Source: Calothrix anomala FACHB-343
GTDB taxonomy: Bacteria; Cyanobacteriota; Cyanobacteriia; Cyanobacteriales; Nostocaceae
Length of the DNA stretch: 47,345 nucleotides
NCBI RefSeq assembly: GCF_014696435.1
Contig: NZ_JACJQG010000077.1
Coordinates: 1 to 47,345 of the forward strand
Reading direction: 5' to 3'
Below the pieces are notes generated by a model. It did no database searches and was not told where the DNA came from. It worked only from the letters and a program-made list of their open reading frames with translations. A program made the translations under genes and the position numbers. Positions 8,553 to 42,755 of the stretch are shown here, in pieces (the stretch's first letter is position 1; each line of letters starts with the position of its first letter).

Positions 8553-8591
8553 TAGTTACCTCAATTGAAAAGTTTAGGAATCAACAACATA

Positions 8592-18101: not shown

Positions 18102-18193
18102 AGTTTTGTCTCTCAAGGGTCTAGGGTCTAGGAAATGGTTTCTTCCATTCGTAGGGGATGGCTCCTACAATCACGGATAAACCGATTTCAAGT

Positions 18194-20090: not shown

Positions 20091-20119
20091 ACTGCGTTCC
20101 CTTCTTCAGGAGAAACAAG

Positions 20120-21103: not shown

Positions 21104-21365
21104 CAATGCTACAAGGGATAGCATTTTGAACAACCCTGCTGCATGAGTTTTCCCGCGATCGCTGTAGGCATAAAACCTAGCTAGGGAAATATAAAAGAAT
21201 GTGACAGATAGGTAAGGGCACAAGTATTGCTGTACCCTTACCCATAATTTATGTGTCGCGAACAGCACTGAATTTTTACGGAATCTGCGGTTCGATTTTA
21301 ATTGCTAAACCGCAAATTGATTCCAGGAACCGAAATGCGCGATCGCTTTCTACAGTCAGTTGTGT

Positions 21366-23132
21366 TCAAATGACGAAGTTAATAACTCGACCGGGAACGT
21401 AAACCACACGCTGAACCTCCTGATTTTTGAGATACCATTGAACTGCTTTTGTTTGTTTGGCGATCGCCATCGCTTCCTGCTGTGAAGCCTCCGGTGAAAC
21501 GGTAATTGTAGTACGAGTACGTCCATTAATTTGTACTGCGACTGTTACCTGTTCGATAATCAACAATTCTGGCTCGAACTGGGGAAAAGTCTGCTGATGA
21601 ATCGAGCCTGATTCACCTAATTGCTGCCAGAGTTCTTCCGTCACATGGGGTGCAAAGGGAGCCAACATCAACAGATATGACTTCAATTCCACCTCTGCAA
21701 TACTCGACTTTGACTGCAACACATTGAAATAACTCATCAAAGCAGCGATCGCTGTATTGTATTTCAGCGATTGCATATCCTCAGAAATCTTGTGGATTGT
21801 TTGATGTAAACGTCGCTGTGATGCCAAATCTGGTGGATTTGGTTGCAAACTAGTTTTGTGTTTGCTCACCCATTGATACACTCGATCCAAGAATCGCCGC
21901 ATACCAGCAATCCCGCGATCGCAAAAATCGCCACCTTGGTCGTATGGCCCCAAAAACATCAAGTAAGTCCGCAATGTATCTGCACCATATTCCTCAATGT
22001 AGCCATCGGGATTCACCACATTGCCCTTGGATTTGCTCATTTTGGCACCCTGCTTAGTCAGCAATCCGTGGGCGCGGAATCGCTCAAAGGGTTCCTCAAA
22101 AGGGATATGCCCCAAATCATGCAACACCATTGTGATGAATCGACTGTACAACAGATGCAGCACAGAATGTTCTGCGCCACCAATATACATATCCACAGGT
22201 AACCATTTAGCTGTAATTGCTCCATCAAATGGAACATCAGAGCGATCGCTTGATGGATAGCGCAAAAAATACCAGGCAGAATCCAAAAAGTTATCAGACA
22301 CATCCGTTTCTCGTCGTGCTGCACCACCACAGCCAGGACAGATTGTATTGACGAATTCTGGAATGTCTGCCAAAGGTGAATTCCCAGTTCCTTGAGGCAA
22401 CCAATTCTCAGTTTCTGGTAACTGCACTGGCAATTGCTCCTCCGGAACGGGCACTGTACCGCAGCGGGAGCAGTAAATAATCGGAATCGGCGGGCCCCAA
22501 TAGCGTTGTCGTGAAATTAACCAATCTCGCAAGTGATACTGCACTGTGCCATCTATTTCGTCACGCCCAATCCAGTTGCGTTGAGCCGTTTTGACTTTTT
22601 CTGACCAGTCCAATCGCTCCAAATTGTCTAACAACCTTTGAGCATACTGAGTGATTTTGAAAAACCACTGTTCCAATTCTCGTTGTATGACAATGGTATT
22701 GCAGCGTTCGCATTCGCCCCCTATCACCTGCTCATCAGCAAGTACTGTCTTGCATGAAGGACACCAATTCACTGCCGCTTTTTTGCGAACGGCTAACCCA
22801 GCTTTGAACAACTGCAAGAAAATCCACTGCGTCCATTTATAATACGCGGGCTCGGTAGTCTGAATTTCGTGATTCCAACAGAAACGATTGCCAATTCTTT
22901 GCAACTGCGTTTCTCGAAATCGCTTCACATTACGCGCCGTCAATTCACGGGGATGAACGCCTTGCTTAATGGCAAAATTTTCGCTGTGAATACCAAAAGC
23001 ATCAAAGCCCATTGGCTCAAATACCGCTTTGCCTTGCATCGCCATGAAACGACCGTATATGTCTGCTCCGGTAAAAGCATAGACATTCCCAACGTGCAAA
23101 CCCTCTGCTGAGGGATAGGGGAACATCATCAA
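21366..23132 (-). CDS. Leucyl-tRNA synthetase-like protein lacking the CP1 editing domain
   Basis: Class I synthetase of the LeuRS type. Numbered from the TTG at 23132 it has 588 residues: HVGN at 13-16 (HIGH motif with final N), zinc-ribbon cysteines 124/127/141/144, NWIGR at 186-190, LISRQRYWG at about 205-213, a second Cys pair set 221/224 and 265/268, KMSKS at 364-368, then the anticodon-binding helices and a C-terminal VPGR-VN-V end. In normal LeuRS some 180 residues of editing domain lie between NWIGR and SRQRYWG; here there are about ten, so the editing domain is gone. I infer a second, non-housekeeping LeuRS-like enzyme: a drug-insensitive copy, or a supplier of aminoacyl-AMP/tRNA to a side pathway. 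The N-terminus is problematic: conserved-looking residues (FTYDHRAIEARWQSIW) continue upstream to 23309 without ATG, GTG or another TTG. Confidence 0.9.
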   Translation of the reverse strand: MMMFPYPSAEGLHVGNVYAFTGADIYGRFMAMQGKAVFEPMGFDAFGIHSENFAIKQGVHPRELTARNVKRFRETQLQRIGNRFCWNHEIQTTEPAYYKWTQWIFLQLFKAGLAVRKKAAVNWCPSCKTVLADEQVIGGECERCNTIVIQRELEQWFFKITQYAQRLLDNLERLDWSEKVKTAQRNWIGRDEIDGTVQYHLRDWLISRQRYWGPPIPIIYCSRCGTVPVPEEQLPVQLPETENWLPQGTGNSPLADIPEFVNTICPGCGGAARRETDVSDNFLDSAWYFLRYPSSDRSDVPFDGAITAKWLPVDMYIGGAEHSVLHLLYSRFITMVLHDLGHIPFEEPFERFRAHGLLTKQGAKMSKSKGNVVNPDGYIEEYGADTLRTYLMFLGPYDQGGDFCDRGIAGMRRFLDRVYQWVSKHKTSLQPNPPDLASQRRLHQTIHKISEDMQSLKYNTAIAALMSYFNVLQSKSSIAEVELKSYLLMLAPFAPHVTEELWQQLGESGSIHQQTFPQFEPELLIIEQVTVAVQINGRTRTTITVSPEASQQEAMAIAKQTKAVQWYLKNQEVQRVVYVPGRVINFVI

Positions 23133-23309
23133 ATTGTAAAAAGGTTGAGCAGTTGTTGCTAAATCGACCTCATGCAGTTGGGTTTGCTGCCAGATGGATT
23201 GCCATCGAGCTTCGATTGCACGGTGATCGTAAGTAAAAGAAGGTGGAATAGAGTTGATCGGATCTCTTTGATCCGGCTTTATAGGTCTCAGTCGTGCATC
23301 ATAAAATTC
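23133..23309 (-). other. Open N-terminal extension of the LeuRS-like gene without a start codon
   Basis: The LeuRS-like frame stays open for 59 codons beyond the TTG. It encodes a stretch with YDHRAIEARWQSIWQQ, which aligns in kind with the first helix of LeuRS proteins (Y-P--IE--WQ--W). The stop TGA is at 23310-23312. The only near-cognate starts are CTG at 23289-23291 and a few ATT/ATC/ATA codons. An ATG-ATG in another frame at about 23302 leads to TGA after four codons. A frameshift near 23295-23305 or CTG initiation would explain this. Confidence 0.6.
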
Positions 23310-23509
23310 TCAATGTCTACCTGTAATATAATTGTAATACACTCAATAGAGTTTGTTGCCAAATTCTAACTAGGGAAGTACTCCCATTTTCGATTCCTGA
23401 GATTGGCTACAATGAAAATTTAGATATTACGGAAAGTCAGCGGGAAAAGCCACTCCATCTAGATTCGTTAACTGCTGACACTCTATGCGCTGTAGCTAGA
23501 CGGAGGAAA

Positions 23510-24622
23510 ATGGCTAAGAATCCTATAGAAATTAGAACCAAGAAATATTTCCACCTTAGTTCACAAATTGCTCAGTTAGATAATGCACAATTGCTTTCTT
23601 TGTTTAACAATAGTGAATCGAATGATTCAAGTACAGGTTGGGGGAGAAATTACACCATAACTCTGGAAGAATACCAGGTTTTTGTGAAACTTGTTCCTGT
23701 GACGGACATCGAATTTGACAACCTCTTTTCTACCAAAAACCTCTATAACTTACCGACTTACTGTAATTACGGCTTAGGTTCCACTGGTTTTGGAGTCTTC
23801 CGGGAACTCGTAACCCATATCAAGACAACTAACTGGGTATTAGCAGGTGAAATTGCCACTTTCCCCTTGATGTACCATTATCGGATTATTCCCTTCTCTG
23901 GGCAGCGTACTGATGTTGATAGAGAGCATTACAAAAGTTACATAGAATACTGGGGTAATAGTGAGAACGCCGGGAAATATTTATTAGATAGAGCAAATGC
24001 CAACTATGAATTAGTTCTGTTCCTAGAATACATTCCCCATATTTTGGAAACATGGCTACTCTTAAACCCCGACAAACTTCAGCAACCCTTGGATGAGTTA
24101 CGCACAACGATTGACTTTTTGAGAATGAAGGAAATCATCCACTTTGACGCACATTTTCGTAATGTTCTCACTGATGGCGAGCAGATTTATTTAAGCGATT
24201 TTGGCTTGGTACTGGACAAAAGTTTTGCATTAACAACAGAAGAAAAATCTTTTTTTGAGCGGAACAAATTTTACGATTACGGCGAAGTTATGCGAAATCT
24301 GGGTCTTTTGATTCGCGCACCTTATGATTCATGTTCAGAAAACGACCAACGCAGAATCAGAGAAAAATATAGCATTCAAGAAAGTTTAAAACCTTATGAA
24401 CAGCGCTCAATATTACTCGACAACATCGAACAAATATATGCTGACGGCGATATTAAGTTAAATGATTTCTACGTTGCCAGCATTGTTAAATACCGTAGCA
24501 TCATTACGCTCATGCAAAACTTCTTTGCTGCCATGTGGGATAACAAAAACAAGGATACGAAATTTCCACACGCAGAACTAGAGCGGCTGCTCAAAGAGAC
24601 AGGATTTATTCGTAGCGCTTAA
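23510..24622 (+). CDS. Protein-kinase-fold phosphotransferase of unknown substrate
   Basis: A 370-residue protein with the kinase/aminoglycoside-phosphotransferase catalytic core: a possible ATP lysine K60 (VFVKLVP), the catalytic loop HFDAHFRNVL (D213, N218) and SDFGL (D230). Such H-D-x-H-x-x-N loops are found in APH-like and lipopolysaccharide-kinase-like families rather than in Hanks kinases. Sequence upstream of the catalytic loop is not recognisable. GGAGG lies only 3 nt before the ATG, tight for a ribosome site; the frame is open upstream to about 23325 with no start. It is divergent from the LeuRS-like gene, 220-380 bp away, so the two may share regulation. Confidence 0.7.
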   Translation: MAKNPIEIRTKKYFHLSSQIAQLDNAQLLSLFNNSESNDSSTGWGRNYTITLEEYQVFVKLVPVTDIEFDNLFSTKNLYNLPTYCNYGLGSTGFGVFRELVTHIKTTNWVLAGEIATFPLMYHYRIIPFSGQRTDVDREHYKSYIEYWGNSENAGKYLLDRANANYELVLFLEYIPHILETWLLLNPDKLQQPLDELRTTIDFLRMKEIIHFDAHFRNVLTDGEQIYLSDFGLVLDKSFALTTEEKSFFERNKFYDYGEVMRNLGLLIRAPYDSCSENDQRRIREKYSIQESLKPYEQRSILLDNIEQIYADGDIKLNDFYVASIVKYRSIITLMQNFFAAMWDNKNKDTKFPHAELERLLKETGFIRSA

Positions 24623-24686
24623 TAACACGGCAGATAGTTCTCTTTTAATATTATTAATTGGTGCGGTACGCGTATTTTTGAGAACT

Positions 24687-25004
24687 TTAATTTTGACTTT
24701 GCAAATATTCTGCATATTCAATCTTGAATTCGTGTGCATTCTTGAAATCAGTAGAAAACTGCGAAAGCACTTCTACAACAGCATCTGTATCAGTTTGGGC
24801 TAAAGCGATAATTCCGGGCTGTTGAGGGATGCGAAACTGGTTGTGGTCGTGAAAAGTAATTGTGACAATTGTTCCTAGCGAATCTCCTTCTCTTGACTTG
24901 ATAGTACTCCACATCCAACGCTGTTGATTTGTTTCTTCACGATTACCACCAGCGTGGAAACGCATACCCAAAAACTCCATCCCCTTGTGGGTGGAGTTTT
25001 TCAT
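24687..25004 (-). CDS. Hypothetical protein
   Basis: A frame of up to 105 residues, not recognised. It has a beta-rich centre (GTIVTITFHDHNQFRIP) and an amphipathic C-terminal helix. The first ATG lies at the edge of the terminator hairpin of the upstream SMR gene, so a later start (MEFLGM at 24980 or MRFHAGGN at 24965) is more likely, giving 92-97 residues. It is tail-to-tail with the kinase-fold gene. No family assigned. Confidence 0.5.
   Translation of the reverse strand: MKNSTHKGMEFLGMRFHAGGNREETNQQRWMWSTIKSREGDSLGTIVTITFHDHNQFRIPQQPGIIALAQTDTDAVVEVLSQFSTDFKNAHEFKIEYAEYLQSQN
24970..25001 (-). terminator. Rho-independent terminator of the SMR gene
   Basis: AAAAACTCCA (24970-24979) pairs with TGGAGTTTTT (24992-25001), and CCC/GGG extends the stem past one bulge. 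On the minus strand the right arm supplies GGAGTTTTTGGG. It lies 48 bp past the SMR stop codon. Confidence 0.7.
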
Positions 25005-25048
25005 TTCTAAGTTCTGATAGCGGACACAATATTATTTTGATGCTGCAA

Positions 25049-25369
25049 CTAGTGTGAGGAGAGAAGTCTCAGACCCAGCACGCCTGCGATAATTAAGCCA
25101 ATGCAGAAAAAGCGCCTGAATTCAGCAGATTCTCCCAACAGAATTACACCTAGCAAAGCAGTACCTGCTGCTCCTATACCAGTCCAGACTGCATAGGCAG
25201 TACCTACTGGTAGTGTGCGGAGTGCTATTGACAGGAAAACAAAACTCACTACCATGCAACTAACAGTAGCGATGCTAGGAACAAGCTTGGTAAATCCTTG
25301 TGTATACTTCAGACCAATTGCCCATCCCATCTCCAGTAAACCAGCTATCAGCAGGTAAATCCAAGCCAT
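25049..25369 (-). CDS. SMR-family small exporter, SugE/Gdx type
   Basis: A 106-residue, four-helix membrane protein of the small multidrug resistance family, a proton-driven antiporter acting as an antiparallel dimer. [22 protein letters not shown] has the essential glutamate E13 of helix 1, and the GLKYT/KLVPS segment plus [18 protein letters not shown] match the SugE/Gdx branch, which exports guanidinium, rather than the EmrE branch. The start is set at the ATG at 25367-25369 because GAGGAGA lies 6 nt before it and it gives the normal length; a TTG further upstream would add 14 non-conserved residues. No guanidine riboswitch is recognisable upstream. Confidence 0.88.
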
Positions 25370-25411
25370 CGTTTTCTCCTCTACTGTTTGCATGCGATCG
25401 CTCTTGTGCAA

Positions 25412-25779
25412 CCCTAATAGTAATCATCAGCACATTTTTCATTTACAGAGAAAAAGCATCCAAATAGTAGGATTGTACTGTAAAGCGAAAAAAGTATGAA
25501 CTACCTTTGGTATTTTGCGCTCTACAGCCACTTGATATTTATCTCTCAAAAGGCATAACTCTTAAACAGGTCTTCAGTAGGAATATCAAATTGTCCACCA
25601 ATTTCTCAAAGCATCTGCTTTGGTGTTACCAATTCTATAAAAGCTACAAGACAACCATCACCCTGTAGTTGTTACACTACCTAGCCAAAACAGATTACCA
25701 CTACTATCCTCACCAGCTATGAGGATAGAACTGAAGTTTTACCAGATAATTGAAGTGTAATCACCTGAAAAATTAGCAA
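25412..25779. other. Intergenic region, possible gene remnant on the minus strand
   Basis: No intact gene. On the minus strand around 25740-25600 a frame reads SSILIAGEDSSGNLFWLG, then a TGA, then SFYRIGNTKADALRNWW, suggestive of a decayed coding region, but I cannot name it. Confidence 0.25.
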
Positions 25780-26019
25780 ATGATACTTATGTCGGAAATT
25801 GAAGACTTGGGAGTTACTGTAGAAGAGTATTTAGATGGATTAACAGCAGGGATTGATATTTTAGAATTGAAGCGCTTAGAAGCAAGGGGAATTCCTACCC
25901 ATTTAGCTTTAGAAGTTATGACTATTACACCAAAGGTAATTGATGGCACAGCAACCCCTGAAGAAATTGTCAGGGGAATCATGATTTTGACACCATCCCT
26001 GAGACAACAGCTTGAATAA
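25780..26019 (+). CDS. Small hypothetical acidic protein
   Basis: A 79-residue (or 76 from the second ATG at 25789, MSEIEDLG) soluble protein, probably helical: VEEYLDGLTAGIDILELKRLEARGIPTHLALEVMTITPKVIDGTATPEEIVRGI contains amphipathic repeats. Not recognised. It precedes the NUDIX gene by about 70 bp on the same strand and may be co-transcribed. Note that the phrase given here is split by known helix breaks (GIP, TP), consistent with a three-helix bundle. Confidence 0.5.
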   Translation: MILMSEIEDLGVTVEEYLDGLTAGIDILELKRLEARGIPTHLALEVMTITPKVIDGTATPEEIVRGIMILTPSLRQQLE

Positions 26020-26086
26020 TGAGAGAGAATTACCAATATTGGTTAACTTTGGATTGTCATCTTATATCAGTGCTTATTTTATCTGT

Positions 26087-26596
26087 ATGATGCAAGATTT
26101 AGAGATACTTGACATTGTAGATGAAAATGATTGCGTTATCGCACAAAAGAAACGCTCAGAAATATATAGTCAAGGGTTGTGCAATTTTAGAGTTGTCAAT
26201 GCTTTTGTCGTTAATTCACTAGGACAACTTTGGATACCTCGCCGTTCTGCACAAAAACGGATTTTTCCCCTTTGTCTTGATGTCAGTATGGGTGGTCATG
26301 TGGAAAGTGGAGAAACTTACGAAGATGCTCTGCAACGTGAACTCAAAGAAGAATTAAACCTAGATTTAAACATGCTTAATCCGCAGTTATTGGGTTATTT
26401 AACACCACATGAATATCAAGTTTCTGCTTTTATGAAAGTTTATGAAATCACATTAGATTATGAACCAGATTACAATCAGAATGATTTTATTGAAAGTTTT
26501 TGGTTATCTCCTTCTGATTTAATAGAATGGTTAAATAAAGGTGAACCTGCAAAAAGTGACTTGAGCAAACTTGTGCAGATATTTTATGCAAATTAA
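26087..26596 (+). CDS. NUDIX hydrolase
   Basis: About 169 residues. The Nudix box is nearly complete: G-HVESG-E-TYEDALQ-RELKEEL, binding the divalent metal that helps hydrolyse a nucleoside diphosphate linked to another group; the usual final G is N here. The N-terminus (ILDIVDENDCVIAQKKRSEIY) and GQLWIPRRSAQKRIFPLCLDVSMGGHV resemble the YfcD/IPP-isomerase-like branch. The start is chosen at ATG 26087 (or 26090), since the 25 codons upstream depend on a TTG and read as non-conserved. No ribosome site is evident. Substrate unknown. Confidence 0.88.
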   Translation: MMQDLEILDIVDENDCVIAQKKRSEIYSQGLCNFRVVNAFVVNSLGQLWIPRRSAQKRIFPLCLDVSMGGHVESGETYEDALQRELKEELNLDLNMLNPQLLGYLTPHEYQVSAFMKVYEITLDYEPDYNQNDFIESFWLSPSDLIEWLNKGEPAKSDLSKLVQIFYAN

Positions 26597-26642
26597 ACTC
26601 GACTCTTGAGGACTAAAATTCAAGCAAGGAAAAATAGCGTAT

Positions 26643-26780
26643 GTAGGCGATACCTGCAGTGGGCTACGCCTACGCTCCTGTTGCATTTACTAGTTGTTTG
26701 GAGATAGCATGAGGTAAAGTGGTAGCGAAAGTAGTTTAATTGGTAGTTGTCCATAGGTAAACATTTATCGCAGGTATCGC
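26643..26780. repeat. Dispersed GC-rich inverted repeats
   Basis: GTAGGCG...CGCCTAC (about 26643-26673) forms one palindromic repeat, and GCGATACCTGC (26647-26657) recurs inverted as GCAGGTATCGC (26770-26780). GTAGGCGTAGCCC-type repeats also appear near 29002 and are common in Nostocales intergenic DNA. Confidence 0.5.
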
Positions 26781-26824
26781 ACTCCATCCTTTAGCAACAT
26801 AAAACCCTAGAGGAAAATTTAAAT

Positions 26825-27148
26825 ATGTCAAAGAAAGAAAGAAGATTTAAGGCAGTTAGTTCTCTTGATGATGTGGAAATTATTATTCAGGAGCCATGTC
26901 AGGTTCGTTGGGCAGATATGGAAGGTGATAATGATGTGAGAAAATGTCATTATTGTCAATTAAATGTTTACAACTTTTTAAGCAAGTCTCCTCATGAAAT
27001 TCTCAATTTAATTAATCTCCATGAAGGCAAACTTTGCGCTCAGTTTTTTGCTCGTTATGATGGGACAATGACGATGGAATCATGCCAAGAAAAACAAAAA
27101 AATAATGGGATTGCTAGAGGTAAAATTCGGGTGATAAGGAGATTATAA
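26825..27148 (+). CDS. Small cysteine-motif protein of unknown function
   Basis: A 107-residue soluble protein. The pattern PCQVRWADMEGDNDVRKCHYCQLNV, with C-x-x-C, then LCAQFFARYDGTMTMESC, matches a widespread unnamed family (PC--W--M-GD---R-C--C---VYN ... LC-RF--R-DGT ... -C). The four to five cysteines suggest a zinc or redox site. No transmembrane segment or signal. AGAGG precedes the ATG by 9 nt. It stands alone. Confidence 0.6.
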   Translation: MSKKERRFKAVSSLDDVEIIIQEPCQVRWADMEGDNDVRKCHYCQLNVYNFLSKSPHEILNLINLHEGKLCAQFFARYDGTMTMESCQEKQKNNGIARGKIRVIRRL

Positions 27149-27552
27149 TAATAATTGCTTAAATGGAGATTGCCGATAAAAATAATATAAATAATCTTTA
27201 TTCTGACAATGTGTATTGAAAACTATTTAATAACTGAGTATTTTTATAAACAGCAATTATAACTATTGGGAAGTGCGATAAATAATTGCTATACTGGGAG
27301 AAAATTTTTGCTGGATTGTTCTTAATCGTAAATTTTTCTTAGAGGAAATAGAGGATAGATGCGATCGCACATTTACGGATTAGTTATCTGGGAAATTGGG
27401 CGCAGGGGCGATCGCTGAAATGAGAATTCGGTTTTTTTAACTTTATGCTTTTAATAGATGTTGTAGCGATCGCTTTAGCTGCTTTTATCCTTACCCGTTG
27501 ATATAACCAAGTGTGTAAGCTCTCAGTTAACTGCTATCTTAAATAAAAAACT
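27149..27552. other. Intergenic, no gene seen
   Basis: AT-rich with four HIP1 sites between 27360 and 27475. No coding frame longer than about 25 codons looks real. Confidence 0.45.
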
Positions 27553-27572
27553 TGCATTCTTGCAAGAATGCA
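27553..27572. promoter_or_regulatory. 20-bp perfect palindrome before the SDR gene
   Basis: TGCATTCTTGCAAGAATGCA is its own reverse complement. It lies 49 bp before the preferred SDR start codon and overlaps an alternative upstream ATG. A perfect palindrome of this size is likely an operator for a dimeric repressor (TetR-like or similar) not encoded nearby. Confidence 0.5.
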
Positions 27573-27621
27573 CCTGTTTCAGACAAATATTTTCAACCCA
27601 ATAACTACAGGGATCGCAGGC

Positions 27622-28371
27622 ATGACAAAACTAGAGGGGAAAGTCGCAGTTGTTACAGGTGCGTCTAAAGGCATCGGTGCGTCGATTGCCAAACACCTGG
27701 CAGCTGAAGGTGCAGCAGTGGTTGTCAATTACGCCTCTAGCAAACAAGGGGCTGATCGCGTAGTGGATGAGATTATTAGCGCCGGTGGAAAGGCGATCTC
27801 AGTTCAGGCAAATGTTGCCAAAAAAGCAGAGATTGAACATCTGTTTACAGAAACACAGCAAGCATTCGGCAGGGTTGATATTTTGGTCAACAATGCGGGA
27901 ATTTATGAATTTTCCCCAATCGAAGACATCACCGAAGCGCACTTCCATCAGCAATTCGATATCAATGTTCTGGGATTGATCCTCACCTCGCAACAAGCCG
28001 TAAAACACTTCGACTCGGCAGGCGGCAGCATTATCAATATCAGTTCCATTGTCAGCACCCTCGCGCCCCCGAATGCTTCAATCTATAGCGCTACCAAAGC
28101 AGCTGTTGATGTCATCACGAAGTCCCTAGCTAAAGAGTTAGGCCCCCGCCGCATCCGTGTCAACTCCATCAATCCTGGCATGGTGGAAACAGAAGGTACG
28201 CACACAGCAGGAATTACCGAAAGCGAAGGTCGCCAACAAATTGAAGCGCAAACACCACTAGGTCGCATTGGACAGCCACAGGACATCGCCCCTGCTGTTG
28301 TCTTCCTTGCTTCCTCTGATTCCGCCTGGATTACTGGCGAAACGCTGTACATCAGCGGTGGGCTTCGCTAG
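27622..28371 (+). CDS. Short-chain dehydrogenase/reductase
   Basis: A 249-residue classical SDR that uses NAD(P)H on carbonyl or alcohol groups. Motifs: TGASKGIG (cofactor, residues 12-19), NNAG, the catalytic Ser in NISSI, and YSATK (Tyr, Lys). Sequence and length fit the 3-oxoacyl-ACP-reductase/glucose-1-dehydrogenase-like group, with ISGG near the end. The start is at ATG 27622 (MTKLEGKVAVVTG), as in all relatives; the open frame extends 18 codons upstream through an ATG that overlaps the perfect palindrome. Monocistronic. The substrate cannot be told. Confidence 0.92.
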   Translation: MTKLEGKVAVVTGASKGIGASIAKHLAAEGAAVVVNYASSKQGADRVVDEIISAGGKAISVQANVAKKAEIEHLFTETQQAFGRVDILVNNAGIYEFSPIEDITEAHFHQQFDINVLGLILTSQQAVKHFDSAGGSIINISSIVSTLAPPNASIYSATKAAVDVITKSLAKELGPRRIRVNSINPGMVETEGTHTAGITESEGRQQIEAQTPLGRIGQPQDIAPAVVFLASSDSAWITGETLYISGGLR

Positions 28372-28758
28372 CTTGAGATGCCTTGACCTCCTCCCCCGCT
28401 ACATTGCTCCGCGATCGCACACAATTTGAGACAGGCTACCGTATTTCATTGTTGCAAATGCACAGTTTTCCGGGAGCAAAGTCGTTGTGGGTTGAAGTAA
28501 TGACCAAAGAGGCAGGGGAGCAGGGAGCAGGGGGGAAAGTTGAGTAAATTCCACTGCCAAAAGGGATACAGAGCAACTAAATTTATTTATGAAAAAAGAA
28601 AAAATATGTATTTCGAGACACGTAGTGCAAGAAATACTGCGTCTTTATTTCAGAGCCACCGGAATTTATGTATGGGGTTCTCCCCTCTGCCCCCTGCCCC
28701 CTGCCCCTTGTCCTCTTCGTTGACGAATCAAAATAAGCGATCGCATCTCTTGCGCTGA

Positions 28759-28932
28759 CTGCGAACAAGCTTCCTAGAACTGGAAGGGTACAATTGTGAG
28801 GATGCACCAAACACCCGAACTTTCTGGGATCAGCTGAAGCAAACGAGTGCAGGAATGGAAGTTGCGATCGCCCTAAATAACCAACCAGCCAGGGCGAATT
28901 GCAACTCATTGAATAACGCAAAAGACAGATAA
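28759..28932 (+). pseudogene. 3' remnant of an unidentified gene
   Basis: A 57-codon open frame with no usable upstream start, bounded by TGA at 28756. It reads LELEGYNCEDAPNTRTFW then DQLKQTSAGMEVAIAL, composition like real protein, and stops at TAA overlapping a perfect hairpin. I take it as the end of a decayed gene; the family is not recognised. Confidence 0.3.
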
Positions 28933-28946
28933 AATCTATCTGTCTT
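28922..28946 (+). terminator. Perfect 10-bp hairpin
   Basis: AAGACAGATA (28922-28931) and TATCTGTCTT (28937-28946) pair completely around a 5-nt loop. It overlaps the stop codon of the gene remnant upstream. Confidence 0.55.
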
Positions 28947-29146
28947 CAACAAGCGTGCGTATCTTTTCAGCAATTGCGATCAACCCACCATTTGCTAAAT
29001 GCGTAGGCGTAGCCAGCCTTAGGCATCGCACGTAACAGAAATTTTCTGCCGACAAACTAATCTAAAATCAGTCAACGCTTCAGGACAGACAGAATGTCAG
29101 AGAAAGATAAAGATATTTGGCAGAGTATTCGAGAAAAAGCGATCGC

Positions 29147-30463
29147 TTACGGAAGAGAAATGGTTCGCAAACAAACAGATATATCTCTCCCTCCTTTAAA
29201 TACAACTGTTTCCACAAATCGTAGGCAAATTACCTTAAATTCGGTATCAGATAACGACTCCCAAAAATCGGCTTGAGCAAAAGACTTCAACATGAGATAA
29301 TCTTCTTCCGTCGTGGTATGAAGAGCGTTTTTTTGTTGCTCGTGATTTTTCAATTGCTGCTGCAAATCGGTAATAGCTAAATCAATAGCAGGGTTTCGGG
29401 GTAAAGTTTGGAGTGTTTGCAGTTGGTGAGTCAGGGTAATAACTGTTTCATCAGTTTTTACTTGCTTTTGCGTCCTGCTGTTTACCTCCCTAACCACATC
29501 CTGAGCATGTTGTGAGAGAACCGTGATTACCTTTTTTTTAACTATCGATTTTGCGATTATTTTTCCGTTTGGACAAGCAGTTTTACCTAGCCGCTTGTAC
29601 TGGGAGCATTGAAACTGTTTCCCCGCCTTGGTTTTTGTCATTGCGCGTCCACAAACGCCACATTTGAATATTCCAGCAAGAATGTGTGGTTTAAACTTAG
29701 CTGGGTCTTTTTTATTGACGTGAGCAGTTATTTTTGCTAAATCCTCATACTCTTGCTCGGATATTAACGCCTCATGGGTTCCGTAATGCCGTTCAATTTC
29801 TCCTGATTTGAGCTTATAAAATGTGTGCCCTCGCAGCGCCGGGTTATGTAACCAATTCCGGATGCTAGAAGGGTACATTTTGATTGCAAAACTTTCGAGA
29901 AGCCAACGAGAAATAGAACCGTAGGAATTAGTGTAAAGCCTGTGAATAATTTCTTTGGCAATCAACCAGTTAGAAGGATGAGGAATGCACTTAGTATTTT
30001 CGTCCTTTGTGTAGCCAAATGGCGGACTCCCAAAGTATTTGAGATTGGAGCGGTAGTAATCAGTTCCGTGGGAGATACGTTCAGATAATAAGCGACTCTC
30101 AAACTCTGCCAACCCAGCAATATTATTAATAGTTAGCCACCCGAAAGCAGAATTTGTATCGCCTAAAGGAGAATCAAGGATAGTTAACTTAACCCCCGTT
30201 TGTTGGAGTAATTCTAATGTTTTATGAATGCTAATTACGTTACGCCCAAGTCGATCTAGTCGCGTCACAATTATTTCTGTTGCTACCCCATTCTTGGCTA
30301 GGGAAATTATTTGGTTAAAGTTTTTCCTGGTGTCCTTTCTACCAGATTCGATATCATATAAGACTTTCTCAGATCCAGCTTTTTCCAGGCGGCTGATTTG
30401 TTGGTCAAGTGCTTCTGTATCTGCTTGCTGACGAGTTGAAACACGGGCATAGCCTATACGCAT
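29147..30463 (-). CDS. Large serine recombinase, XisF-like
   Basis: A 438-residue site-specific recombinase. N-terminal resolvase domain (1-145) with YARVSTRQQ, catalytic Ser9, and TRLDRLGRN; a recombinase DNA-binding domain (about 160-260, FGYTKDENTKC..., PALRGHTFYK); a zinc ribbon C-x-x-C...C...C (CGVCGRAM, then QFQCSQY and TACPNGK); and a coiled-coil-like tail. Serine recombinases of this build excise the fdxN element during heterocyst development (XisF). The start codon is 48 bp from the truncated hupS, pointing outward from it, the position expected of a recombinase at the edge of its own element. No XisH or XisI gene is visible in the window. Confidence 0.9.
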   Translation of the reverse strand: MRIGYARVSTRQQADTEALDQQISRLEKAGSEKVLYDIESGRKDTRKNFNQIISLAKNGVATEIIVTRLDRLGRNVISIHKTLELLQQTGVKLTILDSPLGDTNSAFGWLTINNIAGLAEFESRLLSERISHGTDYYRSNLKYFGSPPFGYTKDENTKCIPHPSNWLIAKEIIHRLYTNSYGSISRWLLESFAIKMYPSSIRNWLHNPALRGHTFYKLKSGEIERHYGTHEALISEQEYEDLAKITAHVNKKDPAKFKPHILAGIFKCGVCGRAMTKTKAGKQFQCSQYKRLGKTACPNGKIIAKSIVKKKVITVLSQHAQDVVREVNSRTQKQVKTDETVITLTHQLQTLQTLPRNPAIDLAITDLQQQLKNHEQQKNALHTTTEEDYLMLKSFAQADFWESLSDTEFKVICLRFVETVVFKGGRDISVCLRTISLP

Positions 30464-30511
30464 TTTGGGGTTTTGGGGTTTTGATCGGGTTGAAAATCAT
30501 AGTACCACATC
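30464..30511. other. Probable right attachment region of the hupS element
   Basis: The segment between the recombinase start codon and the first hupS codon. It contains TTTTGGGGTTTTGGGG (30463-30478) next to the recombinase start, and ends at GTATTTAAAACAC where hupS homology begins. The recombination core should lie around 30503-30525; its partner is outside the window. Confidence 0.5.
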
Positions 30512-30649
30512 GTATTTAAAACACAAACAATCATGGGGGTTCCCAAAGAATTACCACCAGGAGTCAAACCCAAAGACTATGCCTTACTCACGATGGTAGC
30601 CAAAGACATAGCACCATCTTGGGCAGACGAAGATATTTTCACGATTTAG
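30512..30649 (+). pseudogene. hupS: 3' end of hupS (uptake hydrogenase small subunit), interrupted
   Basis: A 45-codon stretch reading VFKTQTIMGVPKELPPG and ending ALLTMVAKDIAPSWADEDIF-TI before TAG. This is the C-terminus of the cyanobacterial [NiFe] uptake hydrogenase small subunit, which carries the FeS clusters and passes electrons from H2 to the respiratory/photosynthetic chain in heterocysts. It sits in the expected place, 95 bp before hupL on the same strand. The frame is closed just upstream by TAG (30500-30502), and the preceding sequence is a recombinase gene, so about 275 codons of hupS are missing here. I infer interruption by an excision element rather than loss, because hupL downstream is kept intact apart from its own element. 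Confidence 0.85.
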
Positions 30650-30744: not shown

Positions 30745-31329
30745 ATGACAATTCAAACATTAGATATATCGCCTGTCGGTAGAGTCGAGGGCGATTTAGA
30801 TGTCCGGGTAGACATAGAGGATGGGTATGTAGTCAATGCTTGGACTCATGCGGAACTTTTCCGGGGATTTGAAGTGATCCTACGCGGTAAAGACCCCCAA
30901 GCAGGATTAATCGTCACACCTCGGATCTGTGGTATCTGCGGTGGTTCCCACTTGACTTGTGCATCATGGGCATTAGATACCGCATGGGGTACAGAAGTCC
31001 CGCGCAATGCGATTTTGGCAAGGAATTTAGGGCAAATTGTCGAAACAATTCAAAGTATCCCTCGCCATTTTTACGCTCTATATGCTATTGACTTAACCCA
31101 TAGAAAGTATCGCAGCAGTCGCTTCTATGAAGAAGCCACTAGACGCTTTGGGGCGTTTACTGGCACATCTTACGAACTTGGCGTGACTATTGCCGCTAAA
31201 CCTGTAGAAATTTATGCATTATTGGGCGGTCAATGGCCCCACAGCAGTTATATGGAAATAAATTGGAGAATTGCTTATATAGTCAGGATTTGCCAAGATA
31301 GGTGTAATCATTCCCTGGCTTTTCCTTAA
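30745..31329 (+). CDS. hupL: hupL 5' part (uptake hydrogenase large subunit), interrupted
   Basis: Codons 1-170 of the [NiFe] uptake hydrogenase large subunit. It starts MTIQTLDISPVGRVEGDLDV, the conserved EGDL start, and carries the first nickel-binding motif RICGIC (Cys62, Cys65) followed by GGSH. True hupL sequence ends at 31255, in the direct repeat, after WPHSSYM. The remaining 24 codons to 31329 are element sequence, so the unexcised gene makes a 194-residue truncated product without the second nickel motif. After excision the frame joins to 42773 and yields 531 codons. No strong ribosome site; translation may be coupled to hupS. Confidence 0.97.
   Translation: MTIQTLDISPVGRVEGDLDVRVDIEDGYVVNAWTHAELFRGFEVILRGKDPQAGLIVTPRICGICGGSHLTCASWALDTAWGTEVPRNAILARNLGQIVETIQSIPRHFYALYAIDLTHRKYRSSRFYEEATRRFGAFTGTSYELGVTIAAKPVEIYALLGGQWPHSSYMEINWRIAYIVRICQDRCNHSLAFP
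31239..31255 (+). repeat. hupL element direct repeat, left
   Basis: CACAGCAGTTATATGG at 31240-31255, with one more shared C at 31239. Identical to the right copy. Same 16-bp core as that known for the Anabaena 7120 hupL element; recombination site of XisC. Confidence 0.96.
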
Positions 31330-31925
31330 ATTAGGCTATCAGCTACGCCATAAGTAAAGATCGCCAGCAGCAAATCAATTTATTTTTCTCTGCTAAAAGT
31401 TATTTAATCTTCTTCAGATATTACCTAATTTTTCCCTATTCCTAGATTAGCGATGTCTAGCGACAAGCCGTACTCTCCGAGAAGCCTCGCGCCGCTCGTC
31501 TACCGCGTCTACGCAGTTAAGGCAGTCCAAAAGAATTAGTTACAGCACATTACCAGTTAGTGAGGTACAGATTATCGTTGATTGTAGGGGCACTGGCACT
31601 GCCATGCCCCGAAGCGCGTACCTCATTGACCTGAAATATGCTGTAAGTATAATTATTTTCTTTACCTTGAAGTAAAAAGCCGGATTTTTCTCAATATAAA
31701 TACGTAAATACTATTATTTTAGTCTCAATATCGACAGTATAATTTAAGTATACAAGTATTAATTACTTTGTTTGTCAATTAAGCGATCGCTTTTCTCAAA
31801 TCCCAATATATCAAGCATCATAACCACTTCCTTTGAAAATTATACGGAAATCAGTTAGCCCTTCCTGCCTCGCCCCAACCCAAAAATCGTCTAAACTCAA
31901 AGTGTCCGCTAACTGCCAAAATCCC
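31330..31925. other. Left non-coding part of the hupL element
   Basis: Contains a GC-rich dispersed repeat (about 31451-31535, with CTACCGCGTCTACGC), the second MITE copy, and from about 31807 a segment ending ATTATACGGAAA that resembles 40530-40575. From 31850 the sequence duplicates that before the second AAA gene. Confidence 0.55.
31540..31646. repeat. MITE-like dispersed repeat, copy 2
   Basis: TTACAGCA (31540-31547) and TGCTGTAA (31639-31646) form perfect 8-bp terminal inverted repeats, and GTGAGGTAC/GTACCTCAT adds to the pairing. The 107-bp body is nearly the reverse complement of the copy at 577-683. Confidence 0.75.
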
Positions 31926-33485
31926 ATGTCTCGCTGGTTCAACATTGCAGGCCCTTGTCAAGCCGATATCCACTACATGCTATCTGCAACAACACGATTA
32001 CCAGATTTGGAAGAGCTAATCCAACAGCGTAGTTATTTTGTGGTTCATGCACCGCGACAAACGGGGAAAACCACAGCAATGTTAGCTCTAGCACAGCAAC
32101 TTACCGCAACTGGACGTTATGCAGCAGTAATGGTATCGGTAGAGGTGGGAAGCGCATTTAATCATGACCCCAGTGCAGCAGAATTAGCGATTTTGGGAAC
32201 TTGGTACGATACAATTGCGATTCGATTACCCAATGAATTGCAACCACCAGTTCTCACACAAGGGCAAAAAGAAGAACCAGGACGCAGAATCAGGTCTTTT
32301 TTCCAAGCTTGGGCACAGTCTTGCCCCCGACCTTTGGTAGTATTTATTGATGAAATTGACTCCCTACAAGACCAAACACTAATTTCAGTTTTACGACAAT
32401 TACGAGATGGTTTTCCCAATCGTCCAGAAAATTTCCCTTCATCCGTGGGATTAATTGGTTTGCGGGATGTCCGAGATTACAAAGTTGCATCCGGTGGTAG
32501 TAACAGATTAAATACATCCAGTCCTTTTAACATTAAAGTCAGTTCAATTACCCTGAGAAACTTTAACGCTACAGAGGTGCAAGAACTATATCAACAACAT
32601 ACAGAAGATACAGGACAAATTTTTACTCTAGAAGCCACAGCAACAGCCTTTGATTTGACTCAGGGACAACCTTGGTTAGTGAATGCGCTGGCTAAAGAAG
32701 TTGTAGAAAAAATGGTTAAAGATAGAAGTATTTCTATTACAAAAGAGCATATTTTACAAGCCAAGGAAATATTAATTGCCCGTCAAGATACTCATCTTGA
32801 TTCTTTAGCCGAACGCCTACGTGAACCAAGAATAAAAGCGATTCTCGAACCGATGTTAGCAGGTTTGGAATTGGGGGATATACCCAATGATGATATTCAA
32901 TTTGTGATTGATTTGGGGTTGTGTAAAATGCATCCCCAGGGTGGATTAACCATTGCTAATCCCATTTATCGCGAAGTTTTACCCAGGGTATTAACGGTGA
33001 CACCAATGGCATCTCTACCAATGATTGCACCGACTTGGTTAACCCCAGAAGGGGAGTTAAATATAGATGCATTGCTAGCAGCATTTCTCAAGTTTTGGCG
33101 ACAGCATGGGGAACCGTTATTAGGTAGTACTGGATACCATGAAATCGCCCCTCACATTGTATTAATGGCTTTTTTGCATCGTGTTGTGAATGGTGGTGGA
33201 ACCCTAGAGAGGGAATATGCAATTGGTAGCGACAGAATGGATTTATGTCTGCGTTACAAAGATGTAACTTTAGGTATCGAGTTAAAGGTATGGCGGGATA
33301 AAAAGCGCGATCCCTTAACTGAGGGTATAGAGCAATTAGAATCCTATTTAGGGCGTTTGGGGTTGGATTTTGGTTGGTTATTTGTGTTTGATAGGCGGAA
33401 AAATGCCCTACCAATGGAAGAACGTTTATCGACTGAGGTTGTATTGACACAAAATCAACGTGCGATTACTGTGATTCGGGCGTGA
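31926..33485 (+). CDS. AAA-type ATPase with C-terminal PD-(D/E)XK nuclease-like domain, copy 1
   Basis: A 519-residue protein. N-terminal AAA-like ATPase: Walker A APRQTGKTT (42-50), Walker B LVVFIDEID (about 138-146), then a sensor/lid region up to about residue 290. The C-terminal 120 residues have the PD-(D/E)XK-like signature DRMDLCLRY...GIELKVW (D, then E-x-K), a nuclease fold without a named partner. Cyanobacterial genomes hold many such paralogues, function unknown; a nucleic-acid-processing or defence role is an inference. The start is put at the ATG giving MSRWFNIAGPCQ because copy 2 shares it; an upstream ATG would add 31 residues. A second copy lies about 5 kb to the right. Confidence 0.8.
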   Translation: MSRWFNIAGPCQADIHYMLSATTRLPDLEELIQQRSYFVVHAPRQTGKTTAMLALAQQLTATGRYAAVMVSVEVGSAFNHDPSAAELAILGTWYDTIAIRLPNELQPPVLTQGQKEEPGRRIRSFFQAWAQSCPRPLVVFIDEIDSLQDQTLISVLRQLRDGFPNRPENFPSSVGLIGLRDVRDYKVASGGSNRLNTSSPFNIKVSSITLRNFNATEVQELYQQHTEDTGQIFTLEATATAFDLTQGQPWLVNALAKEVVEKMVKDRSISITKEHILQAKEILIARQDTHLDSLAERLREPRIKAILEPMLAGLELGDIPNDDIQFVIDLGLCKMHPQGGLTIANPIYREVLPRVLTVTPMASLPMIAPTWLTPEGELNIDALLAAFLKFWRQHGEPLLGSTGYHEIAPHIVLMAFLHRVVNGGGTLEREYAIGSDRMDLCLRYKDVTLGIELKVWRDKKRDPLTEGIEQLESYLGRLGLDFGWLFVFDRRKNALPMEERLSTEVVLTQNQRAITVIRA

Positions 33486-33508
33486 GTATTTTAACAGGAA
33501 ATAGCTAG

Positions 33509-33537
33509 GCGATCGCTTTTTTCAAAAATGTTTAACG
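33509..33537. repeat. Downstream end of the AAA duplication unit
   Basis: GCGATCGCTTTTTTCAAAAA followed by TGTTTAACG, matching the sequences after AAA copy 2 (about 38475-38503) and again at 38888-38915. It marks the right edge of the duplicated block. Confidence 0.55.
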
Positions 33538-33665
33538 GCAAATCTAACTCCTCTAGACTGCGATCGCACTTGCTTAAAGTCCACAATCTTGGTACGTTAA
33601 GAGGAATTTATCAGCAGATTCATCAGGAGTATTATGGGGAACTAACTTGAAAAAATAAAAGAAAT

Positions 33666-35828
33666 TCATCTTGAAAGAATCTTATTGATTTCATTCACAA
33701 CATCTTCAAAATTTGAGTTCTCGTGTATATCAATTGGCGGAATTAGAAAATCTCTCAGATGACCAATAAATTCACTTATCGTTCGTGTTATTTTTGAGTA
33801 TAAGTCGATATCTTCTCTTATATTTGGTGCTAAATTGGCAAGTTTAACAGACTTCATCGCTTCGTCCACAGCCTCAAGTTTCTCTTCCCAAAATCTAATA
33901 TACTCAATGATCTCAACTGGCTCATAAATCTTCGCATCTTCCAAAACAAGGGGGACAATTCTTTCTTTAAACCTTCCGTTTTCAATAAACTCAGTTAGCT
34001 CAAACATACAGTATCTAGATTTGAGATATTTATCACTTATGACTGTAACTACACATTTACCCTTTCCCAATCTTTGCATAAAGTTTTTTAATGAGTCTTT
34101 ATACTCCAACTCTTCTGAATCACGAACAATATCAATATTTTTTTCCTTAAGAATTTTACATAGCTTATCTACAATTTCACCGCTAGCTCCTCCACGAGCG
34201 TAGCTAATACAGACCTCTTTTTGTGTAGTCATATGTCGGCACTCCAATGATAATATGTCCAAATCTCTTTCTTGTGCAGAGTTTATAATAACTAGTTTAA
34301 AGAAAAGGTCTTGAAGGTCAAATTTTTCAATTTCTTGAATAGCTTCCTTAAGCTTTTCAAAAGCCTCTGAACTATGCACAAACACAATATAATAACAAAA
34401 TCTTACTTTTCCTTTCCTTAAATCTGAGGTCAGCTTCTTTAAAGCATCCTCATCAAAATTTACATTGCCAATAGTTTTAGCTATAAATAAAGCTTTTTCT
34501 TTATAAAGTGAGCATTTGAAGTCTACAGGATTTTTTCCGAGACCACTTTCACTTTTAAGTTTTACCTTGGATTGATAGCAATATTCACCAATTAGCTCTT
34601 CAACAAGATTTTTTACAATTAATTGGCTACGAAATCTAAGATTGTGTTCAGCTAAATTGTCTGTATCACTATCAACTTCGTGAATCTCCCATAAATGCTT
34701 GTATCCGTTGAATTGCTCATCTTCAACAAACTGTTTTAGTTTTAGAATCAATGAAATCAGAAACTCACGAAATTCCTCTGAGTTGGAATATGTTGAGCGT
34801 GGAAGGGGATTTTTGTCAACAAACTCTTTGATAGCTCTAGGAAGCTTGATAATATTCTTGGTATCTTTTTCAAAGTTATACTGGGTGTATGAATCTGGAT
34901 GAGTTTCAACATCATTTATAAATTCATTCAAAATTTCTGGATCTTGTTCAATGTAGTTTAAAACATATCTTTTTACAGAAATGCTGCTGTCATCTTCTTT
35001 TTCCTCTTCTTCATTTTCTAAATCATATTTTTCAAGATCATCATGCAGTTCAGAGTTTAGTTTAGCTCTTAATTGTTCATTTTCTTTACTCTTGATAAAG
35101 CGATAAAATTGCTCAGAACTAATAGATGGTATTTCACGTAAAAAAGCCTTTGGAACTAAAAGTATAGGCTTGTTATTGAAAGGATTAAAAGGTAAGTAAA
35201 AGCCTTGATCATCCCACTCGTTACGTTCAAAGTCAAAATCATAATTTTTAACAGCGTTCCATTTAAGATGTTCATCTCTTATAGAAAGCCTCTTACAAAT
35301 ATCCCTCGTATAATGCACTAATTCTTTTTTGATCAGATTACCTGTTGCATCACTAATTTTATCTTTACCGATACCTGGAGTAAAAATTTCAATTTGTTCA
35401 AAATGCTTAGGAGGCGAACTAGATTGCTTTGAAAGGTTTATAAGAGCATCAGATAGTTTTATTGCAAAATCCTTACCCATACCTGCTCCACCAGTGGTGT
35501 GTTTAGAAAAACCCAAACACACTTCTTCTACTTCTGGAAAACGAAGTGTATCATATATTAATCTCTTATATTTTGACGGCAAATTTCCTGATTTTTTATT
35601 TTCTTCAGAAGGAACTTCACCAATTTTAGAAGCTACATCAAAAGCACATCTAAAAAAATTCATAAACTTCTGACGGCAATTACTAAAAAATGGATCTTTA
35701 GACTTAAAAACTTGGAATGGATCTATACATAAATGGGTATCTCTATCAAGACGAGGATTAAACCAGTCATCTTGTTCTGATGCCTCAATATTGTAAACTT
35801 CAGAGAAAAGAACGCTTTCTTGTTTCAT
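33666..35828 (-). CDS. TIR-domain protein with large N-terminal domain, putative defence effector
   Basis: A 720-residue protein. The C-terminal part from about residue 537 is a TIR domain: EVCISYARGG, VRDSEELEYKDSL, then SRYCMFELTEF, where E610 sits at the position of the catalytic glutamate of NAD-cleaving TIR enzymes. The N-terminal 500 residues include LDRDTHLCIDPFQVFKS, KRLIYDTLRFPEVEEVCLGF, a Gly-rich GGAGMGKDFAIKLSDAL and GIGKDKISDATGNLIKKEL. I recognise this as a recurrent uncharacterised region of bacterial proteins, perhaps a sensor or nuclease; an acidic linker (ENEEEEKEDD) splits it near residue 270. I infer an abortive-infection type system: N-terminal sensing, TIR-driven NAD depletion. 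It is co-directional with, and 5 bp after, the 157-residue gene. Confidence 0.75.
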   Translation of the reverse strand: MKQESVLFSEVYNIEASEQDDWFNPRLDRDTHLCIDPFQVFKSKDPFFSNCRQKFMNFFRCAFDVASKIGEVPSEENKKSGNLPSKYKRLIYDTLRFPEVEEVCLGFSKHTTGGAGMGKDFAIKLSDALINLSKQSSSPPKHFEQIEIFTPGIGKDKISDATGNLIKKELVHYTRDICKRLSIRDEHLKWNAVKNYDFDFERNEWDDQGFYLPFNPFNNKPILLVPKAFLREIPSISSEQFYRFIKSKENEQLRAKLNSELHDDLEKYDLENEEEEKEDDSSISVKRYVLNYIEQDPEILNEFINDVETHPDSYTQYNFEKDTKNIIKLPRAIKEFVDKNPLPRSTYSNSEEFREFLISLILKLKQFVEDEQFNGYKHLWEIHEVDSDTDNLAEHNLRFRSQLIVKNLVEELIGEYCYQSKVKLKSESGLGKNPVDFKCSLYKEKALFIAKTIGNVNFDEDALKKLTSDLRKGKVRFCYYIVFVHSSEAFEKLKEAIQEIEKFDLQDLFFKLVIINSAQERDLDILSLECRHMTTQKEVCISYARGGASGEIVDKLCKILKEKNIDIVRDSEELEYKDSLKNFMQRLGKGKCVVTVISDKYLKSRYCMFELTEFIENGRFKERIVPLVLEDAKIYEPVEIIEYIRFWEEKLEAVDEAMKSVKLANLAPNIREDIDLYSKITRTISEFIGHLRDFLIPPIDIHENSNFEDVVNEINKILSR

Positions 35829-35833
35829 AAAAG

Positions 35834-36307
35834 TTACTCAGGTAGTTCTAAAATTTCTTCTAGGTACTTTCTCGCTTTTGCAGCTTCAGGTAAAGCTTCT
35901 TTATAAGATGAAAGTGCTACAGCATAATCTCTAATAATCTTCAGGCTTTTTTTAATCTCATTAAAATCACTTTCAGGCAATAATCTCTCCTCAAACAATA
36001 AGTCCATATTTTTGTGTACTTCCAAAGATTGCTTATACAGATTTTGAGCTTTTTGCTTTGAATCAGAAAGCTTTGCAAGAGTTTCCACCGCAGTAAAAAT
36101 TTCTTCTTTATTTTTTGGCATCAAAGTTTCTTCTTGAATTTCAACCAACTGTCTAGTGCTGAAACCATTAGGCATTTTCAATCTTAATGATTTGTCATTA
36201 ACCAAACAAGCTAGTTCTTGAGCTGCTATATATCTTGCATCTCTTTCATTCTTGCTCTTTCTAGAAAACAAACGTTCTGGTTGATGCGGAGCAACATAGT
36301 AAGACAT
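35834..36307 (-). CDS. Helical partner protein of the TIR gene
   Basis: A 157-residue, mostly helical, charged soluble protein; no family recognised. Its N-terminus (SRKSKNERDARYIAAQELA) and the long C-terminal helices (EAAKARKYLEEILELPE) suggest a coiled-coil or helical bundle. It ends 5 bp before the TIR gene's start, so the two are translated from one message. Given that pairing it could be a regulator, sensor or antidote of the TIR protein. ATG start, no clear ribosome site. Confidence 0.6.
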   Translation of the reverse strand: MSYYVAPHQPERLFSRKSKNERDARYIAAQELACLVNDKSLRLKMPNGFSTRQLVEIQEETLMPKNKEEIFTAVETLAKLSDSKQKAQNLYKQSLEVHKNMDLLFEERLLPESDFNEIKKSLKIIRDYAVALSSYKEALPEAAKARKYLEEILELPE

Positions 36308-36878
36308 ACAGCGATAAATTTTATTTTTTTAAATATAACCTCATTAAAAGTCATGCACAAGAAACACAGTCATCGATCACCTCACTCATGAACAAATACA
36401 CATCGTACAGACTAAGCTGTCATGCATTTAAATTGGGTACTCCAATCTGCTGTCACAGTTCCAGCATAAGGATTTAGTGATTTAGCCTTAACCGATCTAA
36501 ATGACGAACAGCTTACTCTTACCTCTATATCAATAACTTAAGCTACCTAACTATTTATTAGACGGAAAATTTCCGTTTATCCATCACACCAAACAATCCA
36601 GTGATATAAAGCATTACAGCTAATTTAGTCATAAAATTAAGAACTTTGGCGGATATCGTCAATATCCACATATTATACAGAAAATTCCCAGATAACTACT
36701 TAAATAGTGGTAGATAGCAAGAACTTTTCTGGCTATCATCTTTTTCCGAGTAATAGACGGAATGATTCGGTATATCTACCCGATGTTTAAACAAACAAAA
36801 ATCCCCAATTAGCCCTTCCTGCCATCCCCAACCCGAAAATCGTCTAAACTCAAAGTGTCCGCCAACTGCCAAAATCCC
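36308..36878. other. Non-coding spacer with palindromes before AAA copy 2
   Basis: Divergent promoter region for the TIR operon and AAA copy 2. It holds TTAGACGGAAAATTTCCG (from about 36558), a variant of the palindromes at 40.5 kb, and ATTATACAGAAAATTCCC near 36668. The segment from about 36810 duplicates the sequence before AAA copy 1. A 72-codon minus-strand frame here is not accepted. Confidence 0.5.
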
Positions 36879-38438: not shown

Positions 38439-38460
38439 GTATTTTGATTGATTGATTTGT

Positions 38461-38503
38461 TTGTTTGGATATTGAGCGATCGCATTTCTCAAAGATGTTT
38501 AAC
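38461..38503. repeat. 43-bp direct repeat, left
   Basis: Starts TTGTTTGGATATTGAGCGAT and ends GATGTTTAAC. It differs at two positions from 38873-38915. The stop codon of the 104-residue minus-strand gene lies inside it. Confidence 0.65.
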
Positions 38504-40303: not shown

Positions 40304-40490
40304 TCTTTGCCCACGCTATCTGTTCGTAAGTTCAACACTTGAATCTTTCGACCTTACATCAAACATCGCTATTTTTACTCAACCGCCGAAAACAAAATCT
40401 CACTAATCCTTAACAAATTGCTAATCTTGAACGCCAATGGAAAGTTTCTAAACTATGTCTCAGCAACTAAAACAAGCGGCATAACTATTT

Positions 40491-42640: not shown

Positions 42641-42755
42641 TCCCTAAATATTCCCTTATTTATAAACTGAAATGGTGAAAATAAAATGTTCTTGCCGAGC
42701 AAAATCACTTTACACAACAAGTTACTCATGAACATTTTTAGCATATCACCAGTAA

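Follow-up and report, generated by a model that had tools for sequence, protein, structure and literature searches.

The window, by which we mean the whole stretch of 47,345 bp analysed here, is an entire contig (C120) of the 9.24-Mb draft genome (144 contigs) of a filamentous cyanobacterium, and it carries pieces of both subunit genes of the uptake hydrogenase (Table 1). Only the 3' end of hupS is found. To its left, inside an interrupting element and near its border, a large serine recombinase gene is transcribed away from the fragment, while to its right hupL starts 95 bp past the hupS stop and is itself interrupted. The initial annotation had claimed that no more than the last 45 codons of hupS are present in the window and that they begin about 48 bp from the start codon of the recombinase, and both values agree with our measurements.

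Table 1. Features of the two interrupted hydrogenase genes in the window (positions are those of the window).
Feature	Position	Strand	Remarks
Right-hand part of the hupS element (cargo and recombinase)	1..30523	.	contig begins inside the element; C10 holds the 5' half with the same core
XisF-type large serine recombinase, 438 aa	29147..30463	-	start codon 48 bp away from the hupS fragment
Predicted attR	30500..30549	+	element half-site, central CA at 30,524-30,525, hupS half-site
16-bp direct repeat CGTATTTAAAACACAA	30511..30526	+	second copy at C10 18,927-18,912 (minus)
3' fragment of hupS	30512..30649	+	codons 276-320 (V276-I320, 45 codons, 30,512-30,646) and stop at 30,647-30,649
5' fragment of hupL	30745..31255	+	
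Repeat CACAGCAGTTATATGG of the hupL element, left copy	31240..31255	+	0 expected in 100 shuffles
hupL element, 11,517 bp repeat to repeat	31256..42772	.	lies between perfect copies of CACAGCAGTTATATGG
Tyrosine recombinase of the hupL element	41156..42640	-	Phage_integrase domain
3' fragment of hupL	42757..43857	+	531 aa once the two hupL fragments are joined

A HupS search of the draft (E <= 0.001) returned two fragments, one on C120 and one on contig C10, and no further hupS. The C10 fragment, also the sole match of a profile search with PF14720, corresponds to residues 1-281 (18,909-19,751, minus strand) and supplies the roughly 275 codons that are missing from the window. Copies of the repeat CGTATTTAAAACACAA are found on both halves, pointing the same way with respect to the gene, and joining the halves at this repeat gives a stop-free HupS frame of 320 aa. 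The core GTATTTAAAAC, for which the initial annotation had proposed to look at the 3' edge of the missing part, lies on C10 within this 16-bp identity, in direct orientation relative to the gene. The hupS gene of this genome is cut in two, as had been suspected from the window by itself, and the split is at codon 280: an upstream fragment exists, and no complete copy was found elsewhere in the draft.

The start of the contig falls inside the element, so that all of the 30.5 kb to the left of the break is expected to belong to it, where the earlier claim had been for some or all. The sum of the window side (30,523 bp) and the C10 side (18,914 bp) is 49,437 bp, which puts the size of the hupS element at 49.4 kb at least; the real element may be longer, since a repeat of about 110 bp opens both C10 and C120. 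This repeat (about 107-118 bp, at positions 1-118 of both contigs) ends many contigs of the draft. Elsewhere in the draft, the copy at the window's end found 27 matches, including the one on C10 (40 of the 89 candidates were scored), and every match with a listed contig size sits at a contig end. The assembly was therefore broken inside the hupS element by a dispersed repeat. C10 and C120 are separate, unlinked contigs, and with the same repeat at both starts their adjacency in the chromosome cannot be confirmed from the draft.

The recombinase has the domains Resolvase, Recombinase and Zn_ribbon_recom, and scores 461.5 bits against the NCBIfam model of XisF (NF041201), over the curated cut-off of 375. 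In this respect the element resembles the fdxN element of Nostoc PCC 7120, described in PMC4874684 as carrying XisF, XisH and XisI. It differs from it in the target gene and in that neither C10 nor C120 has an XisH gene; eight such genes are found in the rest of the draft, and an unassembled stretch between the two contigs is possible. No candidate for a directionality factor was found for the hupS element.

A scan of the GTDB species genomes with the recombinase gave eight loci, seven of them cyanobacterial (57-98% identity) and the last one in an Oscillospiraceae MAG (25% identity). Four of the seven cyanobacterial recombinases adjoin the same 3' fragment of hupS, namely those of Tolypothrix FACHB-123, Plectonema LEGE 06105, C. 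parasitica NIES-267 and NIES-22. The other three (C. elsteri, NIES-4101 and CSU_2_0) are next to a fragment that we took from its protein sequence to be nifD, an assignment confirmed by search. When hupS was searched again in six of the seven recombinase-bearing genomes (all except FACHB-123), it was found split at codons 273-282 in LEGE 06105, NIES-267 and NIES-22. Both pieces lie on one contig and on the same strand in NIES-22 (54,651 bp centre to centre) and NIES-267 (109,938 bp). Across the order, 117 of 388 genomes had a HupS match, and among these only that of the window was broken at codons 275-282.

These relatives bear on two alternative explanations of the split. One is that an assembly error or contamination makes hupS seem interrupted, as could happen in a draft in which both contigs start in a shared repeat. 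The break at the same codon in two single-contig genomes largely refutes this, and the chromosomal sides of C10 and C120 closely match NIES-22 (94.7% over 2,892 bp upstream, 96-98% in several stretches downstream), so that we give this explanation hardly any credit. The other is that a chromosomal rearrangement has parted the two halves in this particular genome, making a neat excision no longer possible. Halves that sit on different contigs ending in a dispersed repeat would fit such an event, but the same-strand arrangement in NIES-22 and NIES-267 makes it very improbable. A separate element in hupS, as proposed in the initial annotation, is supported by the same break in two single-contig strains as well as by the joined frames and the recombinase domains.

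Other interruptions of these genes were seen in the same searches. A break near codons 15-23 of hupS appears in four of the 117 genomes with a HupS match and also in C. elsteri. In C. parasitica NIES-267 two breaks, near codons 16-20 and 275-282, cut the gene into three, so that it holds two elements. Calothrix sp. NIES-4101 has an intact hupS and, elsewhere, a second copy split near codons 84-94 with its pieces about 25 kb apart. In the nifD gene of this strain, the element with the related serine recombinase is followed by a piece matching only 17 residues and then by a second break, so that two elements enclose a very short stretch of coding sequence.

The ends of the elements were compared among genomes. 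The centre of the putative att sites, the dinucleotide CA, was first chosen by eye from the symmetric ends of the window's element and then applied to the other genomes, with a half-site length of 25 bp taken by analogy with the phage sites in the excerpts of PMC3783163. Both ends were read in seven genomes, with hupS or nifD as the target, and in every one of them the two ends have the central dinucleotide in common, which is CA in hupS and TG in the sense of nifD. The fully shared stretch around it is 16 bp in the window's genome and 7 bp in LEGE 06105 and NIES-267, and in NIES-22 it is reduced to the CA alone. Since the NIES-22 ends share nothing else, the crossover is predicted in codon 280 of hupS, at its first two bases (30,524-30,525 in the window). 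The split gene becomes complete if its halves are put together at this CA.

The element half-sites at the two ends are symmetric about the CA. The motif TGTGG occupies positions +15 to +19 from the centre in 14 of the 15 element half-sites and in none of the 15 target half-sites; in the longer form TGTGGTA (+15 to +21 from the central CA), each base is kept in 14 or 15 of the 15 element half-sites. The target half-sites carry a weaker copy of the motif, 5 bp nearer to the centre. A weight matrix run over them scored best at a shift of -5 (mean -3.0, next best -7.8), and 30 element-free hupS sites behaved likewise (-3.0 at -5, next best -5.7). Among four independent target half-sites the -5 shift ranked first in three and second in the fourth, and shuffles equalled the result 2 times in 20,000 at that shift and 57 times at any of 17 shifts. 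Near-duplicates were excluded from these two analyses, leaving 11 of the 15 element and 10 of the 15 target half-sites for the weight-matrix scoring and the four target half-sites for the shuffle test.

This anatomy is similar to that of the phage large serine integrases. In the excerpts of PMC3783163, the zinc-ribbon motif of a Listeria phage serine integrase covers positions 16-24 of the half-site in attP, and in attB it is displaced by 5 bp towards the centre; likening these positions to ours assumes a count that starts within the dinucleotide. The domain set, a symmetric attP with a distal zinc-ribbon motif and the inward displacement by 5 bp in attB are all features in common with those phage enzymes. 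Unlike in the phages, no phage structural domains were found among the cargo ORFs of the hupS element that were scanned.

The consensus GTA-N8-TAC is that of NtcA. The left element half-site of the window's element (attL, C10 18,890-18,910) holds GTACAATGTGGTAC, which fits this consensus, and both element half-sites of LEGE 06105 fit it too, although the match may be meaningless given that it overlaps the integrase motif.

If hupS had been broken once and never rejoined, the insertion would be dead. We have compared the pieces between strains, using NG86 dS values above about 1, which are saturated, only as an indication of "very different". The insertion is common to the window and FACHB-123, whose recombinases differ by a dS of 0.12. 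Between these two, all 4 changes in the 40 codons compared at the 3' end of hupS are synonymous, and the 5' fragment of hupL has 15 changes in 494 nt that leave the protein unaltered. LEGE 06105 and NIES-267 differ in hupS by a dN of 0.032 and a dS of 0.78 over 260 codons. Fragments separated by the element therefore keep open frames and a strong synonymous bias, and the recombinase is conserved as well (33 synonymous and 11 nonsynonymous changes between the window and FACHB-123). A pattern of this kind is one of purifying selection on the split genes and favours their regular rejoining. Some support for a dead insertion could be sought in the 45-codon fragment, which is somewhat more divergent at the protein level in LEGE 06105 and NIES-267 (dN 0.21-0.25 against the window-type protein, compared with 0.02-0.19 for intact pairs, one mis-framed intact sequence excluded). 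This could reflect relaxed selection in those two strains, yet the open frames and the synonymous bias make a permanently broken gene very improbable.

The interruption of hupL next to it is of a separate kind, with a recombinase of another superfamily, another repeat and other cargo. Its repeat CACAGCAGTTATATGG, which we take to be the hupL-element repeat of PCC 7120, and its tyrosine recombinase liken it to the known hupL element with XisC. With a serine recombinase in the hupS element and a tyrosine recombinase in the hupL element, the two subunit genes have recombinases that are not related to each other, as the initial annotation had noted. The double interruption also occurs in Plectonema LEGE 06105, with 8,756 bp between the hupL repeats, and in NIES-22, where this distance is 11,883 bp. 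In Tolypothrix FACHB-123 the hupL fragment continues into element sequence like that of the window, with one repeat within the 13.3 kb examined, and in C. parasitica NIES-267 hupL has a single copy of the repeat and is uninterrupted there. Within the window's hupL element, two ORFs with ATPase domains (31,833-33,485 and 36,855-38,438) are 90.5% identical to each other and have a TIR-domain ORF (33,666-35,828) between them; NIES-22 has three such stretches.

Taken together, these data point to an element that interrupts hupS, of the kind found in heterocyst-forming cyanobacteria and mobilised by an XisF-type large serine integrase, with a predicted excision at the CA that restores hupS, a reading to which we would assign a probability of about 0.9. 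In a developing heterocyst, the recombinase and a directionality factor would recombine the two ends at this dinucleotide, setting free a circle of 49.4 kb or more and restoring the gene. The hupL element would be removed independently by its own tyrosine recombinase, and both excisions would be needed for an active uptake hydrogenase. A HetR gene is present in the genome. Two mechanistically unrelated excisions for the subunits of a single enzyme make their coordination a testable matter, and the predicted CA crossover with its half-sites offers a concrete substrate for integrases of the XisF type.

Elements in hupS were reported in 2016. Hilton, Meeks and Zehr (2016; PMC4874684) counted 4 elements in hupS, which fall into 2 position variants, and 11 in hupL, with at least one serine-recombinase element in each group of interrupted genes; the hupS element of Rivularia PCC 7116 has a tyrosine recombinase. 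Their hupS elements are in the same gene and of the same kind as that of the window. In that paper the ends of the elements are marked by direct repeats, without the word attP. This paper was the sole match of a literature search for "hupS element", a search that left most subscription papers outside its reach. What is added here is the att anatomy and a probable re-invasion. The latter touches on a question that Hilton et al. describe as open, whether the elements have persisted from the time they entered or have disappeared and come back. With five strains broken at this position, and with one pair among them in which hupS is nearly identical and the recombinases are very different, this question can be tested.

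The cargo is in line with such a re-invasion. Pfam domains were searched in 18 of the 28 ORFs of at least 100 aa to the left of the recombinase and in 19 of the 26 ORFs of at least 80 aa in C10 1-19,000; they include nitroreductase, Rieske, sigma-70-like, leucyl-tRNA synthetase, SDR, NMT1-like and transposase pieces, among others. When the element was compared with those of NIES-22, NIES-267 and LEGE 06105 (ORFs of at least 80 aa), the recombinase was the only ORF common to all, with two weak cargo matches besides it (28% over 182 aa in LEGE 06105 and 32% over 96 aa in NIES-267). On the left, DNA similarity stops just inside the att half-site. FACHB-123 (13.3 kb examined) does share cargo with the window, in the form of 1.6 kb at 93%, inverted, plus remnants. 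Judging from the four elements compared at this ORF size, the conserved unit is the recombinase with its two putative att half-sites, and the cargo varies by strain.

The hupS genes of the window and NIES-22 are identical at 788 of 825 nt (95.5%; tree path 0.045) and their recombinases at only 997 of 1,317 nt (75.7%; tree path 0.46), a disparity that makes a re-invasion probable. The nearest recombinase to that of NIES-22 is the one of LEGE 06105 (dS 0.58), although the hupS genes of these two are far apart (dS 1.7, in the saturated range). The hupS data reject a grouping of NIES-22 with LEGE 06105 (p 9e-111) and of NIES-22 with LEGE 06105 and NIES-267 (p 0.004), while in the recombinase tree the clade of these three has a moderate support of 84/96 (the CSU_2_0 recombinase, out of frame at its end, was entered as DNA only). 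The lineages of the window and NIES-22 have probably received their recombinases separately, whether by a new arrival or by a replacement at one and the same base pair.

An alternative is one ancient, vertically inherited insertion without any re-invasion, in which recombinase and cargo evolve fast or are swapped by homologous recombination. The recombinase tree does not reject the clade of window, FACHB-123 and NIES-22 expected under vertical descent (p 0.13), and LEGE 06105 and NIES-267 fit such descent, their recombinases (dS 0.93) being about as distant as their hupS genes. However, the contrast in identity and path length between hupS and recombinase in the window and NIES-22 goes against it, as do their different cargo and element half-sites, and we regard a single insertion as rather unlikely. 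We lean instead towards codon 280 as a recurrent landing site for XisF-type integrases, where a minimal unit of integrase plus att would have entered the same dinucleotide more than once, and nifD in related strains, with unrelated cargo each time, the elements being repeatedly lost and reintroduced and not simply inherited.

Some of the cargo is of interest in its own right. A two-partner secretion transporter (window 6,421-8,205) adjoins an ORF of 2,135 aa (8,949-15,356) in which a TPS secretion domain is combined with a CHAT domain at the C-terminus. The hupS element also carries a second leucyl-tRNA synthetase (window 21,366-23,231, minus strand), 40-48% identical to the full-length enzyme encoded on contig C58. 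It is an open frame of 647 codons in which the HVGN and KMSKS motifs are kept, and it is without model positions 225-405, the place of the CP1 editing domain.
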